From NCBI GenBank assembly GCA_004299305.1, contig SCPZ01000071.1:1-42774 (forward strand): a stretch of DNA of 42,774 bases. Direction: 5' to 3'. Positions 324 to 22,400 of this stretch are shown piece after piece. The stretch comes from Methylobacter sp. (lineage in GTDB: Bacteria; Pseudomonadota; Gammaproteobacteria; Methylococcales; Methylomonadaceae). Positions within the stretch are counted from its first letter, which is position 1; the number at the start of each line of letters is the position of its first letter. The position numbers were made by a program, and so were the translations under genes. A model generated the notes under the pieces. It had not been told where the DNA came from. It did no database searches and saw nothing but the letters and a program-made list of their open reading frames with translations.

Positions 324-728
324 TTAAAATCCCACCCAATTCTCAATCCTAAGTCCTGCAACACGAGCAAATTCTTTGGTGTTATTGGTCACTAAAATCA
401 AACCTTCACTTCGCGCATGTCCGGCAATATGCAGATCATTAACGCCGATGCTGTTGCCCTGTTTTTCCAGGGTTCCGCGAATGTCGCCATAATGCGCGGC
501 GGCTTTGGCGGTGTAATCCAATACTTCTAAACGTGAGACAAAATCTTCAACCTGAGCCAGATTATGTACGGGTTGTGCGCTTTTTTCGACGCCATGCAGC
601 AACTCGGCCAGTGTTATCGCGGAAATGCACATCTGCCCCACATGTTGATTAAAAATCGCCAAAACTTCGATGGGGCGGCGTTTAAGCACATAAATAACGA
701 TGTTGGTATCGAGCATGACTTTAAGCAT
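324..728 (-). CDS. vapC: VapC-like PIN-domain ribonuclease toxin
   Basis: A 134-residue PIN-domain protein, the usual VapC length. The N-terminus MLKVMLDTNIVIYVLK has the first acidic residue Asp7; Glu42 (LAELLHG) and Asp98 (GVNDLHIAGHA) supply the next two metal ligands. The fourth position, usually Asp in VTNDREF, reads VTNNTKEF here, a common tolerated variant. VapC toxins are Mg-dependent RNases that cleave tRNA or rRNA and are neutralised by VapB. The ATG overlaps the stop of vapB by one base (TAATG), so translation is probably coupled. The stop lies one base from the end of the RAYT remnant on the opposite strand. Family call firm; its RNA target cannot be told. Confidence 0.9.
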   Translation of the reverse strand: MLKVMLDTNIVIYVLKRRPIEVLAIFNQHVGQMCISAITLAELLHGVEKSAQPVHNLAQVEDFVSRLEVLDYTAKAAAHYGDIRGTLEKQGNSIGVNDLHIAGHARSEGLILVTNNTKEFARVAGLRIENWVGF

Positions 729-961
729 TACAAGGCTTCTCGATCCGTTTCGGTTTGTTCGGCGCGTTCTGCCAGAAAATCGTCGCTGACTTTTTCCCCG
801 CTTAAAAAGAAACTGTCCCAGGTATGTTCAACCGGGCAAAGTATGCGCTCCTCGCCATTGACGCGAATAGCGACTTTTTTTACCGAATCCTTAAAACGGA
901 CTTCCGCAGGCAAGCGCACGGCTTGGGTTTTGTTATTGTTAAAAATCGAACCTTGTAACAT
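728..961 (-). CDS. vapB: VapB-like AbrB/SpoVT-type antitoxin
   Basis: A 77-residue protein beginning MLQGSIFNNNKTQAVRLPAE, the swapped-hairpin AbrB DNA-binding signature of VapB/MazE antitoxins (N-x-x-x-QAVRLP). The acidic C-terminus (SDDFLAERAEQTETDRE) is the part expected to wrap the toxin. A TGAGG ribosome site precedes the ATG. It is first in the operon with vapC, and such antitoxins usually repress their own promoter, which must lie in the AT-rich stretch 962-1020. Confidence 0.88.
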   Translation of the reverse strand: MLQGSIFNNNKTQAVRLPAEVRFKDSVKKVAIRVNGEERILCPVEHTWDSFFLSGEKVSDDFLAERAEQTETDREAL

Positions 962-969
962 GATAGACC

Positions 970-1083
970 TCAGTAGTATTTGTATATATTTTTAGTATAT
1001 ACCTGGTGTTTACAGTCAACAAGCCCCAACACTTTCAGGCGCTCAATTGTGGAATCATCTAATTTGACAGCTTTGCTGGTCAT
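970..1083 (-). pseudogene. N-terminal fragment of a ribbon-helix-helix (CopG-like) antitoxin
   Basis: A 37-codon frame starting at the ATG 1083-1081 reads MTSKAVKLDDSTIERLKVLG, which resembles the start of CopG/RelB-type antitoxins (beta strand then helix), then runs into unrelated sequence and stops at 970. It overlaps the expected vapBC promoter. Together with the RelE fragment just upstream on the same strand it looks like debris of a toxin-antitoxin pair, although the order (toxin first) is reversed from classic relBE. Short, so the assignment is tentative. Confidence 0.4.
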
Positions 1084-1134
1084 GGCTGGCTTCCTGAGTA
1101 TTAAAAGATAATACCTAAGCCTATCCCTTTCAAA

Positions 1135-1346
1135 CTATTCCTTCAACAAGGCGCTGTCATTAAGTTGATACTTGTTCCGATACACTTCACGCCAGTTGCC
1201 GATTTTCACAATCAGTATGCGCAAAGCGCCGTCTTCTATGCTAATGATGCGGTAGTTGCCCACTCGATATTTCCAAAAGTCGTCAAGACGCGAGCCTTTA
1301 ACACTTCCCAATGCTACGCGGGTCATCAAGAACGGCTAGGGAAGTT
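1135..1346 (-). pseudogene. RelE/ParE-family toxin remnant (C-terminal half, frameshifted)
   Basis: The open part encodes the RelE C-terminal half: SRLDDFWKYRVGNYRIIS, then ALRILIVKIGNWREVYR, which carries the conserved YRVG-YRII and REVYR blocks and the basic residues of the active site. Just upstream, another frame reads LDDPRSIGK, the block that normally precedes it, so a small indel near 1310-1320 has shifted the frame. The N-terminal half (about 40 residues in intact homologues) is not found further upstream. The open frame itself would need a TTG start with no ribosome site. Judged a decayed gene. Confidence 0.65.
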
Positions 1347-1425
1347 AGGGTCAGTTCTAACAATCCAACAAATGCACATCAGTACAGTGTCATTGCAACA
1401 AACCATCAAATAAAGACACAAAAAT

Positions 1426-1444
1426 AGATACACGCCGTGTATCT
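1426..1444. promoter_or_regulatory. 19-bp perfect palindrome, likely TacA operator
   Basis: AGATACACG-C-CGTGTATCT is a perfect inverted repeat with 9-bp arms around one base, 43 bp before the tacA start codon. DUF1778/RHH antitoxins bind such short palindromes to repress their own operon. Binding by the adjacent gene product is inferred from position. Confidence 0.65.
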
Positions 1445-1487
1445 GATATGGTATGGTTGATGTAGATTGAAATAAAGAGGAATTTTT

Positions 1488-1775
1488 ATGTCTTACAGCC
1501 AAACATCAACCGATACACAAACTCAGGCGGTTAACTTGCGCGTTCGCCGCGATATTCGCGCCTTGATTGATAGGGCGGCAAAGGCGCAGGGCAAGACGCG
1601 CTCTGACTTTATGATTGACGCCGCTCGACGTGCAGCGGAAGAATCTTTGCTTGACCAAACACTGGTGCGGCTTGATCAAGAAACTTACGAGCATTTCCTT
1701 GAGGTTCTCGACAGCCCGCCTAGTGGTGAAGGGTTTGAGCGGCTGATGGCTGCCGCAAAACCTTGGAATGGATAA
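1488..1775 (+). CDS. tacA: DUF1778 (TacA-type) ribbon-helix-helix antitoxin
   Basis: A 95-residue protein. Residues 14-50 (AVNLRVRRDIRALIDRAA then GKTRSDFMIDAARRAAE) form the ribbon-helix-helix DNA-binding unit typical of DUF1778; the C-terminal tail (LDQETYEHFLEVLDSPPSG, then a hydrophobic helix) is the neutralising region that occupies the toxin's active site in characterised TacAT pairs. A strong AAGAGGAA ribosome site precedes the ATG. Its TAA overlaps the ATG of the GNAT toxin (TAATG). The palindrome at 1426-1444 is the likely autoregulatory operator. Confidence 0.9.
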   Translation: MSYSQTSTDTQTQAVNLRVRRDIRALIDRAAKAQGKTRSDFMIDAARRAAEESLLDQTLVRLDQETYEHFLEVLDSPPSGEGFERLMAAAKPWNG

Positions 1776-2254
1776 TGCTGTCTTCCCCCGTTCTGTTAGC
1801 TACGGATCATCAGTTTGATGATTTTGCCTGTGGTGTCGATAGCCTTGATGATTGGCTGAAGAGGCGGGCGCACCCTAATCAGGTCAGCGGAGCGTCTCGC
1901 ACTTATGTGGTGTCGGAAGGGAAAAAGGTTGTTGGTTATTACTGTCTGGCTTCAGGCGCACTGGAGTTGAACGATGCTCCCGCATCAGTCAGTCGCAATA
2001 TGCCCGATCCTGTTCCTGTCGCCATTCTTGGTCGTCTTGCTGTTGATAAATCCTGTCAGGGCAGAGGGCTTGGGGTTGCCTTGCTTCAAGATGCCGTCGG
2101 TCGCACGGCGCAAGCAGGCGGCATTCTTGGTATACGCGGGCTCCTTGTCCATGCGCTTTCGATTGAAGCAAAGGCTTTTTATGAACATCACGGGTTTGTC
2201 GCATCGCCGACACAACCCATGACTTTGATCCTGTCGCTAAAGGGACTTGTGTAA
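1775..2254 (+). CDS. tacT: GNAT acetyltransferase toxin (TacT-type)
   Basis: A GNAT-fold protein of 159 residues if begun at the ATG 1775, chosen over the upstream TTG at 1763 because it forms a TAATG junction with tacA. Acetyl-CoA-binding motif A is plain (AILGRLAVDKSCQGRGLG), as is the C-terminal AFYEHHGF block with the catalytic-type Tyr. TacT toxins acetylate the amino group of aminoacyl-tRNAs and stop translation; TacA inhibits and co-represses. Adjacent and co-oriented with a DUF1778 antitoxin, so the pair is a type II toxin-antitoxin module. Which aminoacyl-tRNA it would hit is unknown. Confidence 0.9.
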   Translation: MLSSPVLLATDHQFDDFACGVDSLDDWLKRRAHPNQVSGASRTYVVSEGKKVVGYYCLASGALELNDAPASVSRNMPDPVPVAILGRLAVDKSCQGRGLGVALLQDAVGRTAQAGGILGIRGLLVHALSIEAKAFYEHHGFVASPTQPMTLILSLKGLV

Positions 2255-2307
2255 TTATTGATGGCTCTTAGAGGGGCTTGTTCAGCCGTTGTCCAGTCCG
2301 ATTTGAT

Positions 2308-2616
2308 TTAAACCAAATGCACTTCCAGTTTTTTACCCACCGCAGCGGCGTATTTGCGTAAGGTGTCGATAGATGGCGAATGTTTGCCTGAGACCAAGGC
2401 GCTTTCCAGGCGCGCCACTGCCGAGGGTTTTGTGCCCATGCGTTTAGCGACTTGCGCTTGGGTTAATCCGGCTTCGCGTCTGGCGCTGAGTATTTCGTCG
2501 AGTATGGCGTATGTTGTGATGTTGGCGTCATAATCCGCTTTTACCGCTGGATTGCTTAATAATTGTTCGCGAAATGCGGCATCGTGTGGAACGGGTTGGT
2601 AAGTATCGTTAGCCAT
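2308..2616 (-). CDS. XRE-family HTH protein, HigA-like antitoxin without visible toxin
   Basis: A 102-residue protein with a helix-turn-helix at about residues 44-90 (ARREAGLTQAQVAKRMGTK, then PSAVARLESALVSGKHSPS, then TLRKYAAAVGKKLEVHLV). The N-terminal 40 residues resemble those of HigA-type antitoxins. An AGAGG ribosome site precedes the ATG. Its usual partner, a RelE/HigB toxin, should sit directly upstream on the minus strand, but that space (2617-2726) holds only a fold-back sequence, so it is an orphan antitoxin or stand-alone regulator. Confidence 0.8.
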   Translation of the reverse strand: MANDTYQPVPHDAAFREQLLSNPAVKADYDANITTYAILDEILSARREAGLTQAQVAKRMGTKPSAVARLESALVSGKHSPSIDTLRKYAAAVGKKLEVHLV

Positions 2617-2726: not shown

Positions 2727-3296
2727 TTATAAACAGCTCTTTGCCGCTGCAACCCTGATCAATTCATCCACTTCATTGCTTGTTGCTGCAAAATCTTCAG
2801 TTGATACGGAGTATTCGGCAACCCCAACAGCGGCTTCAACAACTACGCCCGGCGCTTTAACACGTTCTGAAATTTCATTTTTAATCTGCGCCGCGATTTG
2901 CTCGGCTTTTTTCAATGGTGAACCCGGCATTGCAATAAGAAAATCCTGGTCGCTCATTCTTGCCGCAATATCAACGCCCGCCCTGATGTCTTCTTTAACG
3001 CAATCGGCCACGCCGCGTAATATGGCGTCCATTTCATGCTCAGGTAAATTATTATTCCTGGTTTTAAAACCTCTTAAACTGATAAAAAGAATAGAAAAAG
3101 GAAAACCGTTGAGTTTGGAGTTCTCGACTTTTTCCTTTAATCGCCCCAGCATGGTGTCTTTGGTCATTAACTGGGTTAGCGGGTCTAGGGGGATATGTTC
3201 CCTGTCCCAGGTTTCCTGGGCTTCCAGCCGCAGTACGTTGATAATGCCTAATGAGCAGGCCAGTAATAATCCAAGTATCCAGGTGAAATACCACAT
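2727..3296 (-). CDS. cydX: CydX-like cytochrome bd small subunit fused to a degenerate GGDEF domain
   Basis: A 189-residue protein and third gene of the cyd operon, 9 bp after cydB, exactly where cydX sits. Residues 1-28 (MWYFTWILGLLLACSLGIIN then VLRLEAQE) match the CydX/YbgT signature almost residue for residue: MWYF-WILG-LLACS-G-I-L-LE. CydX is a 30-40 residue single-span subunit that stabilises the haems of CydAB. Here the frame continues: from residue 38 (DPLTQLMTKDTMLGRL) it follows the fold of a GGDEF domain to about residue 186. The signature motif reads SDQDF (115-119) instead of GGDEF, and the metal Asp positions in FIDLDGFK are Ser73 and Arg75, so diguanylate cyclase activity is unlikely; GTP or c-di-GMP binding or a purely structural role is possible. 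The domain stops short of the usual C-terminal ALYRAK helix. Confidence 0.88.
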   Translation of the reverse strand: MWYFTWILGLLLACSLGIINVLRLEAQETWDREHIPLDPLTQLMTKDTMLGRLKEKVENSKLNGFPFSILFISLRGFKTRNNNLPEHEMDAILRGVADCVKEDIRAGVDIAARMSDQDFLIAMPGSPLKKAEQIAAQIKNEISERVKAPGVVVEAAVGVAEYSVSTEDFAATSNEVDELIRVAAAKSCL

Positions 3297-3305
3297 AGTA
3301 ATCTC

Positions 3306-4445
3306 CTAATAAGCCGTGTGATCGTTTTGTTGAATGTGTTCCAGCGTGACTTTGCCGCGCAATACACGGAACACCCAAGCGGTGTAAGTGACAACGATGG
3401 GTAAAAAAATCACCGTCACCCAGAACATGATGTTTAAGGTGGTAAGGCTGGAACTGGCGTCCCATACGGTCAGGGAGCTGTTCAAGGCCGAGCTTGACGG
3501 CATCAGGAACGGAAACATCGACACGCCCGCCGTTAAAATAACCGAAGTTAATACTAATGAGCTGCTTATAAACGCCAAGCCGGTGCGGTCAATTTTTGAC
3601 AGTACGATGGTTGCCGCTCCGGCAATAAAAGCCAGGGCGGGAATAATCCATAACACCGGACAATGCGCATAGTTATCCAGCCACAATCCCGGTTCTTTGA
3701 TGACTGTTTTTTCCAGTGGGTTGGATGGCGCGTTATGGAGGATTTCACTGCTGATATGGTAACCGTCAATATTGGCAACCCAGATGCCTGCCACAGCAAA
3801 AATGACTAAGGTTACGATTGCCGCAACAGTAACCACTTTTTTACAGCGCAGGTTAATGTCGCCCTCGGTTTTTAGCTGTAAATAGACTGCGCCATGCATA
3901 ACCAGCATCGATAAGCTAACTACTCCCGCCGCCAATGCAAAAGGGTTTAATAAGGCCCAGAATGAACCGGTATAAAAAATACGCATATCGTTATCGAAGT
4001 GGAACGGCACGCCTTGCAGTAAGTTGCCGAAAGCGACGCCGAAAATCAAGGCTGGCACCAAGCCGCCGACAAACAAGGCAATATCCCAGTTGTTGCGCCA
4101 TGTTTGGCTGGGCAGTTTGCTGCGGTAATCAAAGCCTATCGGCCTTAAAAATAACGCAAACAAGGTCAGTAACAAGGCGAAATAAAATCCTGAAAAGGCT
4201 ACGGAATACGCGATAGGCCAAGCCGCAAACAATGCGCCGCCGCCGGTTACCAGCCAAATCTGGTTGCCTTCCCAGGTTGCGCCTATGGAATTGATAATGA
4301 CGCGGCGTTCGGTGTCGTTTTTGCCTAAAAAGGGTAAAAGAATGGCTACGCCGAGGTCAAAACCGTCGGTAATCGCAAAGCCGATCAATAACGCGCCTAA
4401 TAAAGCCCACCAGATCAAGCGCAGGGTTTCATAATCGAAAATCAT
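3306..4445 (-). CDS. cydB: cytochrome bd ubiquinol oxidase subunit II
   Basis: A 379-residue multi-span protein, the same length as E. coli CydB, with its landmarks in order: WWALLGALLIGFAITDGFDL, NDTERRVIINSIGATWEGNQ, TGGGALFAAWP, PIGFDYRSK, AFGNLLQGVPF and FPFLMPSS. It pairs with CydA in the quinol oxidase that reduces O2 to water with high affinity and contributes to proton-motive force. Its ATG overlaps the cydA stop by 4 bp, and the CydX-GGDEF gene follows 9 bp after its stop, so the three are one transcript. Confidence 0.96.
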   Translation of the reverse strand: MIFDYETLRLIWWALLGALLIGFAITDGFDLGVAILLPFLGKNDTERRVIINSIGATWEGNQIWLVTGGGALFAAWPIAYSVAFSGFYFALLLTLFALFLRPIGFDYRSKLPSQTWRNNWDIALFVGGLVPALIFGVAFGNLLQGVPFHFDNDMRIFYTGSFWALLNPFALAAGVVSLSMLVMHGAVYLQLKTEGDINLRCKKVVTVAAIVTLVIFAVAGIWVANIDGYHISSEILHNAPSNPLEKTVIKEPGLWLDNYAHCPVLWIIPALAFIAGAATIVLSKIDRTGLAFISSSLVLTSVILTAGVSMFPFLMPSSSALNSSLTVWDASSSLTTLNIMFWVTVIFLPIVVTYTAWVFRVLRGKVTLEHIQQNDHTAY

Positions 4446-6007
4446 AGTGATGCTCCTGTGGCGATTTCAAAATGGTAGCGGCCTTTATGCAGGCTGCTGG
4501 GGCCTAACTTGATGAATTTAAGCATCAAGAATAGTTCGATGATCAAAAATACCGTATATAAACCGATGTAGCCTGCCAAACTCAGGTATATATCCAGTTC
4601 GGTTAGGGACGAGGTGCTTAAGAATGTCGGCAGAATCTCCGCGATAGTCCAGGGTTGGCGACCGAACTCGGCGACAAACCAGCCCATTTCGCAGGCAATC
4701 CAGGGCAAGGGCATGATGTAAAGACTGGAACGCAACAACCAGTTTTGCCTGCATTTACGAATCGAGCTGGCGATAACTGCGAAAATAAATATCCCCAGCA
4801 TGATAAAGCCGCAAGCCACCATAATTCGGAAGGTCCAAAACAAGGGCACGACCCTGGGTATAGAATATTGCGCCGCCAGTTCTATTTGCTCATCGGTCGC
4901 ATCGACCACTTTTTCGGTATAGCGTTTGAGCAACAGGCCGTAACCTAAGTCATTCTTGTAGCTGGTGAACTCGTCACGGATCATGGGATCCCTGTTGCCG
5001 CTTGTTCTTAATATTTGCAACAGTTCGTAAGCCTTCATGCCGTTACGAATACGCGAGCGGTTTTTTTCCAGAATCTCCGATAAACCGGAAATCGGCGTAT
5101 CGATGGAACGGGTGCCGATCAAGCCCAATACCCAGGGGATTTTGATCGCGTAATGCGTTTTCATGGCTTCCTGGTCGGGGATGCCGATCAGGGTAAATGC
5201 GGCGGGCGGTTCTACGGTGTGCCATTCGGCTTCGATAGCGGCCAGTTTGGTTTTTTGCACTTCGCCGTCGGTATAGCCGCTTTCATCGCCCAACACAATC
5301 ACCGAAAGGATTGCTGCCAAGCCAAAGCCTGCGGCGATGGTATAAGAGCGTTGCGCAAAAGCCGCATCGCGACCTTTCAGCATGTAATAAGCGCTGATGC
5401 CCAGCACGAAAACAGAGGCTGTGGTGTAACCTGCGGCAACGGTATGGACGAATTTAACCTGGGCTGCCGGGTTAAATAACAATGCGCCGAAGCTGGAGAT
5501 TTCCATGCGCATGGTTTCGTAATTAAACTCCGCGCCGACCGGGTTTTGCATCCAACCGTTGGCGACCAGAATCCATAATGCGGACAGGTTGGTTCCCAAT
5601 GCAACCAGCCAGGTCACTAACAAATGTTGTCCTTTGCCCAGCTTATCCCAGCCAAAGAAAAACAGGCCGACAAAGGTGGATTCCAGGAAAAACGCCATCA
5701 AGCCCTCGATGGCAAGCGGCGCGCCGAAAATGTCGCCGACATAGTGCGAGAAATACGACCAGTTCATGCCGAATTGAAATTCCATGGTCAAACCGGTGGT
5801 AACGCCCAGTGCGAAATTGATGCCGAATAATTTCCCCCAGAATTGGGTCATATCCTTGTAAATTTCCTTGCCGGTCATGACATAGGTCGATTCCATTATC
5901 GCCAGTAAAAACGATAAACCTAATGTTAATGGGACAAATAGAAAATGGTATAGAGAAGTTGCTGCAAATTGCCAGCGTGATAAATCAACTACGGCCTCTG
6001 AAATCAT
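4442..6007 (-). CDS. cydA: cytochrome bd ubiquinol oxidase subunit I
   Basis: The start ATG at 6007 is chosen because an AAGGAG ribosome site lies just before it and MISEAVVDLSRWQFAATSLY is the family N-terminus; the open frame extends further upstream without similarity. This gives 521 residues, as in E. coli CydA (522). The haem and quinol regions are present: the first His ligand in SLYHFLFVPL, the Q-loop start GDESGYTDGEVQKTKL, and GRQPW near the C-terminus. The Q-loop is the long E. coli-type version (PPAAFTLIGIPDQE through RSIDTPISGL to IPRVVPLFWTFRIM). Terminal oxidase for low oxygen, and resistant to sulfide in characterised bd enzymes, which suits the divergent sqr gene. Confidence 0.97.
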   Translation of the reverse strand: MISEAVVDLSRWQFAATSLYHFLFVPLTLGLSFLLAIMESTYVMTGKEIYKDMTQFWGKLFGINFALGVTTGLTMEFQFGMNWSYFSHYVGDIFGAPLAIEGLMAFFLESTFVGLFFFGWDKLGKGQHLLVTWLVALGTNLSALWILVANGWMQNPVGAEFNYETMRMEISSFGALLFNPAAQVKFVHTVAAGYTTASVFVLGISAYYMLKGRDAAFAQRSYTIAAGFGLAAILSVIVLGDESGYTDGEVQKTKLAAIEAEWHTVEPPAAFTLIGIPDQEAMKTHYAIKIPWVLGLIGTRSIDTPISGLSEILEKNRSRIRNGMKAYELLQILRTSGNRDPMIRDEFTSYKNDLGYGLLLKRYTEKVVDATDEQIELAAQYSIPRVVPLFWTFRIMVACGFIMLGIFIFAVIASSIRKCRQNWLLRSSLYIMPLPWIACEMGWFVAEFGRQPWTIAEILPTFLSTSSLTELDIYLSLAGYIGLYTVFLIIELFLMLKFIKLGPSSLHKGRYHFEIATGASL

Positions 6008-19425: not shown

Positions 19426-22400
19426 TCATGGCTTCCAATCACTCAATTCTGCCGCAGGCATCGGCCTGGCTATGCCATAACCTTGGCCGATCTCGCAGCC
19501 CATATTGTGCAATGCCTGATATTGTTCTTCGGTCTCAATGCCTTCGGCCACCACCTTAAGATCGAATGCCCTCGCTAAAGCGATAATACCCTGAACAATC
19601 GTTTTGTTGCCATTGTCTTCCAACATGTCTCGTACGAAGGATTGATCTATCTTGATCACATCAATCGGCAGTTTGCTAAGATAGGACAACGAGGAATAGC
19701 CGGTGCCGAAATCATCCAGTGCGAATCCAACCCCGAACCGACGACATTCCTCAATAATATTTCTGACTTTGGTGATATCGTTAAGTGCTACGGTTTCAAG
19801 CACCTCTATCTGCAGTGCCCCTAGTGGAATGTCCGGGTAATCATTCAATTGGCGACGTAGATTTTCGGCAAAGTCGGAGGACTCCAGATGGGTGGTGGAA
19901 ATGTTGATGCTGACTTCGATCTCCAGTCCGGCATCGCGCCATCGCTTGATCTGGGCTAATACGGAGGCAATCACCCAATTGCCGATTTCGATGCCGAGTT
20001 TCGTGGTTTCGATGGGGTGCAGGAATTCAATCGGGGAAAGCAGACCGCGCTGGGGATGTCGCCAGCGAATTAAAGCCTCTGCGCCAACCAGTTGTTTCGT
20101 CGATAAGTTGATTTTGGGCTGGTAATGCATTTCCAACTGATTATATTCCAGTCCGTGACGTATGCTGTTCAGAAATTCGTGATGGCTTCGTACGCGTTGT
20201 TCCTGGTCGGCGTCATAAATGCAAAAGCGGTTCTTGCCGGATTGTTTTGCTGTGTACATGGCTTGGTCGGCATGCCGTAACAGGGTGTCTGCATCTTCGC
20301 CATACATCGGATAAATACTGACGCCAATACTGACGCCTACCGTGTTAGACAGGCCTTTAATCATGATGGGCTGCGCTATTACCGCGAGCAGTCGTTCCAG
20401 CGTCGATTCACATTTTTCGCCTGGCTTCAGGCTCAACAGCACGACGAATTCGTCGCCCCCCAAACGAGCGACTGTATCATCGCCGCGTATGGTGTTTGCA
20501 ATCCGCCTCGCCACATCGATTAGCACCTGATCGCCGGCTTCGTGCCCCGAATTGTCGTTGATGACCTTAAAGCCATCAAGGTCGAGATAGCAGACCGCTA
20601 CCATACCTTGCTCGCGGGTTGCATGCGCGAAAGCTTGTTTCATGCGATCGGCAAGCAATGTTCTGTTGGGTAGGCCCGTCAATGCATCGTAATGGGCGAT
20701 ACGACTCAATTCCGCCTCATGTTCCTTTAAATAACTGATGTCGGAAAATACTCCGACATGGCGCATGATCTCGCCGTTATCGGCAACGATAACGGTGATC
20801 GACAGCAATTCCGCATAAACCTCGCCGGATTTTCGCCGGTTCCATACCTCGCCGCGCCAAGCTTTGTTATTTCGGAGGGATTGCCACATTTCCGCGTAAA
20901 ATAACTTATCTTGATGGCCCGAACTCAGTAGCCTGGGGTTCTTGCCCAGTACCTCTTCGCGACTATAACCCGTAATCCGGGTGAAGGCCGGATTGATATC
21001 CACGATGGCGTTGTTGGCATCGGTAATCAAGATGCCCTCTTGGCTGGTGTCGAATACGCTGGCCGTGATGCGCAGGTTTTCTTCGGCCAGTTTAATTTCA
21101 GTGATGTCGCGGCCGACGGCAAGTACACCGGCAGGGGCTCCATCCATCCCCATTTCCGCAACCATGCGGATAGAATGAATTTGGTGTCGTTCCTCGTCCG
21201 GTGGGATTTTTTGTTCGAAACAGAGGCTTTCCCCGGTAGCGCCAACATGCAGGACTGCTTTGTTATACTCATCATAGCGATCACCCTTTATTGTCCCAGG
21301 CAACTTTCCAATAAAATTCGCTGCCGATAACCCAAGTGTGCGCTCCAAGGCCGGATTCATATAAAGACAGCGCCCCTCGCAATCGTAGCGGGCAATATTG
21401 TCCGGCGAATTTTCCGCCAAGGTCCGAAACTCCCGCTCCCGTAGCGCAAGATTTTCCGCCGCTTGTTTGCTTTCCGTGATGTCTTCGATAATTGACCAGA
21501 TATATTGTCGGCCATCACGCCCCGTCACCACTACGCCGTTCAGGCGCAGTGGAACCAGGCTTCCATCCTTATGTATATACTCTTTTTCATAGGGGCCATA
21601 ACGCCCGGTGCTTGCGAGAGACTCCAGTTGCAGTCTCTCGTCGGCTTCGTATTTTCTCGGCGTCAGAGCCCAGTAGTCGAGCGATCTTAACTCATCTTCG
21701 CTATAACCGCAGATGCGGCGGAATGATTCGTTGAATTCAAGATATCGTCCATTCATGTCCGTCAATGCGATGCCGAGCGGCGCAAGTGTGTAGAGGCTGC
21801 GTAACTTATCCTCGCTTTCTCGTAGGGCGAGTTCCGCTCTCTTACGTTCGGTAATGTCGTGCCAGACGCCAACCAACAACCGCTTGCCGGGCATCGTCAG
21901 CAGACGGGCGTTGATCTCGACATCCAGTATCTCGCCGTTCTTGCAACGGTGACGGTTCTCGAAAGCGGCGCCATCCGTTTCCTTCAGTTGATTTATGCTG
22001 GCTGCCAGCATTTCTTCATTTAAATCAACCTGAGTATCAATCAGCCGGAGCTTAAGATATTCCTCATGCGTATAGCCCAACATGCGGCAGGCCGCGGGAT
22101 TGGCCTCGACAAAACGCAAAGTCTCCGGGTCTATCAGTTCGATGCCGGTAGGCGTTTGCTCGAAAATGGCGCGAAACAACTCTTCACGCTCCGCCAATTG
22201 CCGTTCCATGCTCTTACGTTCGGATATGTCCCGAATGAAAGCACTGAATTCATAGCCTTTCGCCGTATGGATCGGCGAAATGGACAATTCGACGGGGAAT
22301 TCTCGTCCGTCGCGATGGAGCGCGGAAATCTCGAATCGGGTGTTGAGCAGCGCCCCCTCGCCGGTGGACAGGAAATGCTTCATACCGCGAACATGGGCTT

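Follow-up and report, generated by a model that had tools for sequence, protein, structure and literature searches.

The window analysed here, a stretch of 42,774 nucleotides from Methylobacter sp., carries a cyd operon in which the third gene encodes a conserved fusion of the cytochrome bd oxidase subunit CydX to a degenerate GGDEF domain (Table 1). Homologues confirm that the fusion is real; a CydX of this form was not found described, and we infer its function from comparison. There is, in our judgement, about an even chance that the CydX tail gained a dead GGDEF domain, likely once, and that paired copies of this domain stabilise or set the oxidase dimer.

The fusion gene is read on the minus strand without interruption, from an ATG at 3296 to a stop codon at 2727-2729. 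In Pfam, its product matches PF08173 at residues 1-27 (54.8 bits, cut-off 26.2, E 9.4e-15) and PF00990 at residues 37-183 (62 bits, cut-off 23.8, E 7.7e-17), and in NCBIfam it matches TIGR02106 (CydX, residues 1-28, 50.6 bits, cut-off 31.6) and TIGR00254 (GGDEF, residues 38-183). Residues 1-29 also match PDB 6rko_X (E 4.7e-7), both the profile match and the predicted fold identify the remainder as a GGDEF fold, and both Pfam families are matched by all 59 aligned fusion proteins. The gene order is cydA, cydB, fusion; cydA and cydB overlap by 4 nt, the cydA start being picked by aligning E. coli CydA, and 9 nt separate the cydB stop from the fusion ATG, which is preceded by a Shine-Dalgarno-like AGGAGA. 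The initial annotation, made from the letters alone, had described an unbroken frame in third place in the cyd operon, with a CydX start and a GGDEF remainder physically attached to the oxidase subunit, and this description stands, both domains scoring above curated cut-offs in a single frame that relatives keep. Neither a stop or frameshift nor consistently separate genes, the two outcomes it had set against this description, is what relatives show: the fused frame is conserved in them, and the window's genome has no separate cydX. Toxin-antitoxin-like genes (window 324-2616) adjoin the end of the operon, and a second GGDEF domain is present in the window at 20227-20697 (minus strand), inside a 1470-aa open frame.

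Table 1. Features of the window around the cyd operon (positions on the forward strand of the window).
Feature	Position	Strand	Basis or remark
PIN-domain gene and weak MazE-like partner	324-961	-	MazE match below Pfam cut-off
Weak ParE-like frame	1135-1329	-	match below Pfam cut-off
TacA1 antitoxin and GNAT acetyltransferase	1488-2254	+	
HTH_3 gene	2308-2616	-	
cydX-pseudo-GGDEF fusion gene, 189 aa	2727..3296	-	open frame, Pfam and NCBIfam matches, homologues
Pseudo-GGDEF domain, residues 38-189	2730..3185	-	
SDQDF, degenerate GG(D/E)EF motif	2940..2954	-	
RAGVD, I-site-like but RxxxD versus RxxD	2970..2984	-	R105 and D109 invariant, 59/59
DPLT, DxLT hinge motif	3174..3185	-	D38 and T41 invariant, 59/59
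Linker, residues 29-37, predicted to prolong the CydX helix (helix 2-34)	3186..3212	-	AlphaFold2 model; dN/dS 0.091
CydX part, residues 1-28, single membrane helix	3213..3296	-	PF08173, TIGR02106, 6rko_X match
AGGAGA, ribosome-binding-site-like, overlaps cydB stop	3302..3307	-	sequence itself
cydB, 379 aa	3306..4445	-	PF02322, E 8.9e-104
cydA, 521 aa, long Q-loop type	4442..6007	-	PF01654, E 1.6e-168; alignment to 6rko_A over 6-516

With E. coli CydA (6rko_A) the alignment spans 6-516 and takes in the Q-loop; counted by hand, D241, Y245 and R300 are the equivalents of E. coli D239, Y243 and R298. The fusion gene lies directly after a cydAB pair of the long Q-loop type, as expected of a CydX gene. 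The window's genome (4.49 Mb, 99.99% complete) has a single match each for cydA and CydX, the latter being the fusion, and a PF08173 search found no separate cydX; since the sole CydX match stands beside the sole cydA, no other CydX is visible for this oxidase. T223, G298 and S415 of CydA are specific to the clade (54 fusion versus 49 short rows), no fusion-specific residue was found in CydB (66 fusion versus 67 short rows), and the same rows gave no clustered fusion-specific patch on the CydA or CydB surface.

Fusion homologues at E 1e-25 or better are present in 13 of the 23 genomes of the genus; of the remaining ten, two encode a 34-aa CydX and eight show no match to CydX. Across the order, 69 of 311 genomes match a profile built from 59 fusion rows at 1e-25 (242 do not, with the ten best candidates scored per genome, so that a miss is possible), and 67 of the 311, the window's included, carry a full fusion, matching from residue 1 to 163 or beyond. 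G231 has only a partial match (residues 57-167) and G226 a broken fusion. The 67 full-fusion genomes span 14 genera, one genome (G308) belonging to another family of the order, and their proteins, 36-93% identical to that of the window, retain frame, length and profile match. Of the 66 carriers that belong to the window's family, each has a single CydX match, always fused, apart from G061 with two, both fused, and thus none has an additional short CydX; other bd-oxidase members of the family use a short CydX. Independent assemblies repeat the fusion, and carriers with strain names among them are Methylobacter tundripaludum SV96 (L069), M. tundripaludum OWC-G53F (L054) and Ca. Methylobacter oryzae KRF1 (L055).

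The search proposed in the initial annotation, for CydX-length starts on GGDEF proteins, was thus fruitful within Methylococcales and blank in the wider samples. Besides the window's fusion, 369 class genomes gave one match at 1e-20 (residues 35-186, with an ordinary GGEEF motif) and 398 phylum genomes gave one (26-186, an ordinary GGEEF protein lacking a CydX start); no match at that threshold spans the CydX part in either sample, in which the best eight or nine candidates per genome were scored and one could be missed. CydX matches occur in 62 of the 369 class genomes, the window's own among them, and apart from that one no fusion of CydX to a further domain was seen there: seven long frames (100-982 aa) have 36-50 aa from match to stop, and the other 54 frames, of 86 aa or less, have no room for such a domain.

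Several loci depart from this pattern. The single-contig genome G061 has a pair of cydAB operons, both of which include a CydX fusion (L158, L159), and G070 has a second, partial fusion copy (L200) ended by the contig edge. In the broken gene of G226 (L176/L092, G226:C58:56486-57462) the frame ends 75 aa after its start, the stretch around residues 66-82 is gone, what remains is read in a different frame, and downstream of it the GGDEF part occurs a second time as a partial copy; the fusion can therefore be lost. Some short CydX proteins of Methylococcales (L034, L035, L041, L044) have a tail with two cysteines, ESVCDIDxHGxDQSC, whose conservation in that other CydX lineage suggests a disulfide or metal site.

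Reduced at 97% identity, 64 distinct fusions of at least 150 aa left 59 sequences, whose alignment has 26 invariant columns, and M1 and W2 of CydX are invariant (59/59). Five fusions outside this alignment (L198, L201-L204) keep the D and T of DxLT, lack a GG motif and depart from some of the 26 invariant columns. Values of dN/dS (pairwise Nei-Gojobori, 166-237 of 1711 pairs per region, whole-gene dS 0.1-1.2) are 0.013 for CydX, 0.091 for the linker and 0.169 for the GGDEF part, rising along the latter from 0.076 (38-75) through 0.149 (76-127) to 0.219 (128-187). As every part is well below 1, the whole frame is under selection, which is strongest near the membrane. A stripe on helix 46-63 is kept only in the fusions (E55 57/59, K56 58/59, N59 57/59, S60 54/59), its positions having mixed residues in 29 ordinary GGDEF domains, and P66-F67-S68 is present in 59/59.

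The catalytic residues are lost. GG and GG(D/E)EF are each found in 0/59 fusions, and the position of the metal-binding Asp, which we take to be the first Asp of the DxD strand, is Ser in 50 and Asn in nine, versus Asp in 29/29 ordinary GGDEF controls. Both glycines of the GH..GD loop are absent (0/59), only 3/59 and 5/59 retain the C-terminal Lys and Arg, respectively, and most GTP-contacting positions are altered; base-contacting equivalents are partly kept (N82 35/59, D90 50/59). The SDQDF motif and missing metal Asp noted at the outset are seen in the window protein, and the view that the domain is more likely a non-cyclase is borne out, the domain being a pseudo-enzyme; an active diguanylate cyclase is rejected on these counts. 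The I-site-like motif is RxxxD in 59/59, with Arg at the usual place in 0/59 versus 28/29 controls, and a canonical RxxD c-di-GMP receptor of the PelD/BcsE type is likewise rejected. GGDEF is matched 56 times in the window's genome, counting the fusion, and a [GSA]G[DE]EF motif is present in 29 of 30 GGDEF sequences fetched from it, so that c-di-GMP is very probably made.

We infer a single origin of the fusion from two trees. In a FastTree phylogeny of 133 CydB proteins (65 accompanied by a fusion of at least 120 aa, 68 by a short CydX), the fusions fall in one 67-row group with support 96, together with two shorts, L092 and L127; the former is the broken fusion, and the latter, from a Thiotrichaceae record, has a 37-aa CydX and is placed only tentatively. 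A tree of CydA and CydB (54 rows, a hand-chosen subset of 106) places 24 fusions, L092 and L190 on one side of a branch and the 28 other shorts opposite, with a weak support of 70; L190 is the window's own locus, labelled short by the script only because the locus was cut. The three label changes counted on each tree include L092 and L190, or L127. Where the trees contain short CydX genes from the window's family, these sit in other cydAB lineages. The simplest reading of these trees, which is not proof, would be one gain followed by vertical descent. The stand-alone CydX of L127 (5001-5111), which ends LLWLEAQDSLEERTESV and lies near the fusion clade in the CydB tree, is possibly a picture of the pre-fusion state.

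Stalk-helix GGDEF modules function in pairs. The AlphaFold2 model of the fusion, of moderate confidence (mean pLDDT 74.8, pTM 0.58; pLDDT 74 at residues 21-30 and 62 at 31-40), predicts a continuous helix from 2 to 34 and fits over its whole length (1-189, 179 residues, 3.4 A) onto SiaD (7e6g_B), a diguanylate cyclase with a stalk; for other cyclases, long superpositions in which the helix takes part give a larger rmsd, 4-12 A. PDB fold neighbours include PleD with c-di-GMP and ppGpp. In the available text of PMC10470546, CydX of the solved bd-I structure is oriented N-out/C-in, with a dual topology allowed as possible, whereas an older view predicted or assumed a periplasmic C-terminus (PMC5322542, PMC4325964, each available in part). 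The 2026 E. coli structures, according to the accessible portion of PMC13189123, show bd-I dimers held by CydX-CydX contacts (Met1-Trp2 and a leucine zipper), a more active dimer, and bonding of CydX Trp2 to CydA Asp239 that orders part of the Q-loop, and dimerisation is proposed there as a regulatory mechanism; bd-II is dimeric through AppX (PMC8951039, in the text available). For the orientation of CydX we go by the solved structure and by this Trp2 contact with the Q-loop.

A plausible scenario is that the CydX C-terminus was extended, most simply once, in the ancestor of a Methylococcales cydAB lineage. The CydX helix would keep its usual role in the membrane and at the interface of the oxidase dimer, and would continue into the GGDEF DxLT hinge, taking the place of the dimeric stalk helix of ordinary diguanylate cyclases. 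Because CydX is C-in and makes dimer contacts, and M1/W2 and the CydA D239/Y243/R298 equivalents are kept, each domain should adjoin its twin, the two meeting on the two-fold axis of the dimer. Given the pairing of stalked GGDEF modules, twin domains on this axis would be expected to stabilise or regulate the dimer, by mutual contact or through a cytosolic ligand or partner, and the share of oxidase in the more active dimeric state could thereby be tuned. In E. coli, CydX still functions when its C-terminus is altered or tagged (PMC4325964, partial text), and the extension is thus unneeded for basic CydX function. Also weighing against this scenario are the moderate confidence of the model, the higher rmsd with other cyclases, the 242 order genomes lacking a match, the short CydX of other family members, the broken gene of G226 and the lack of a clustered patch on CydA or CydB.

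Degenerate GGDEF domains of PelD and BcsE act as nucleotide receptors for polysaccharide secretion, and the fused domain could similarly bind c-di-GMP (or (p)ppGpp/GTP) at the altered I-site (R105, D109) or a remnant base pocket and alter oxidase activity or assembly. The invariance of R105 and D109, the partial retention of N82 and D90, the probable presence of c-di-GMP in the cell and the PleD neighbours argue for such a receptor; against it, RxxD is absent, Arg being one residue further off in every fusion, neither GG nor the metal Asp survives, few fusions retain the C-terminal Lys and Arg, and the I-site Asp is found in 28/29 controls too, so that its invariance is weak evidence. We regard this reading as unlikely, and scaffolding or regulation on the dimer axis as somewhat more likely than nucleotide sensing. 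The coupling of respiration to nucleotide signalling suggested in the initial annotation is possible, and its most elaborate form, which we hold doubtful, would be a built-in second-messenger switch: a nucleotide (c-di-GMP, (p)ppGpp, GTP) or partner on the paired pseudo-GGDEFs would twist or lock the CydX helix pair, order or disorder the CydA Q-loop via Trp2-Asp239, and raise or lower oxygen respiration with no need for new gene expression.

A role as docking site for some other cytosolic protein, for instance a dehydrogenase or a factor for assembly or localisation, with neither dimer action nor nucleotide, would fit the fusion-only stripe on helix 46-63 and the constant P66-F67-S68, but no partner gene is known, the stripe would also serve self-association and no matching patch was found on CydA or CydB, and we consider it rather improbable. 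A near-neutral passenger, left over from the fusion with little function and tolerated on a free C-terminus, is much less probable again. The tolerance of E. coli CydX, the loss of catalytic residues, the fast-evolving C-terminal third and the broken copy with its duplicated fragment agree with it, but the fusion has kept its frame, length and profile match across 14 genera, with dN/dS well below 1 throughout and near-invariant fusion-specific residues. A missed stop or frameshift artificially joining separate cydX and GGDEF genes has almost no chance of being correct and is refuted by homologues, the same fused frame recurring in 64 distinct sequences from many assemblies, strain records among them. 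Paired domains acting on the dimer remain our preferred reading.

To our knowledge, regulation of bd oxidases is known mainly at transcription. A signalling fold at the dimer-interface subunit would offer a direct handle on whether the oxidase dimer is a physiological switch, and a dead signalling domain in the CydX of many methanotrophs (the fusion carriers are methanotrophs) may allow the oxidase to be adjusted from the cell interior. For wetland Methylobacter, a role of the cyd genes under fluctuating oxygen has been proposed (PMC6222125, in the portion available). The arrangement is testable in a named strain, M. tundripaludum SV96.

No description of a CydX-GGDEF fusion was found in the accessible open-licence PMC literature; the words 'fusion', 'fused' and 'cyclase' are absent from the available text of Allen et al. 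2014 (PMC4325964), and 'fusion' and 'cyclase' from that of PMC5322542, in which 'fused' occurs once; PMC4465626 proved unrelated. Residues 1-28, the place after cydB, the long Q-loop CydA and the conserved aromatic start are those of CydX/CbdX (AppX; PF08173, TIGR02106, 6rko_X), but E. coli CydX has 37 aa and the fusion adds about 150 residues forming a folded domain; some CydX homologues have a C-terminal region of up to 44 aa, according to the part of Allen et al. 2014 (PMC4325964) available. With SiaD 7e6g, WspR 3i5b, PleD 1w25 and DgcB 6ttr the fusion shares the GGDEF fold and a DxLT hinge after a long helix, whereas GG, the metal Asp and the GH..GD glycine pair are missing (all 0/59) and the helix before the hinge is the membrane span of an oxidase subunit. 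PelD, BcsE, CsrD and LapD similarly have a GGDEF fold without cyclase activity on a membrane machine or signalling protein, but none is known to be fused to a respiratory subunit, and the RxxD I-site of PelD and BcsE is not kept in the fusion. An ammonium transporter (PDB 8qj3, 8qj4, 8qpf) is likewise a metabolic membrane protein with a GGDEF-like C-terminal stretch (profile match 468-601), the protein extended in the fusion being an oxidase rather than a transporter.
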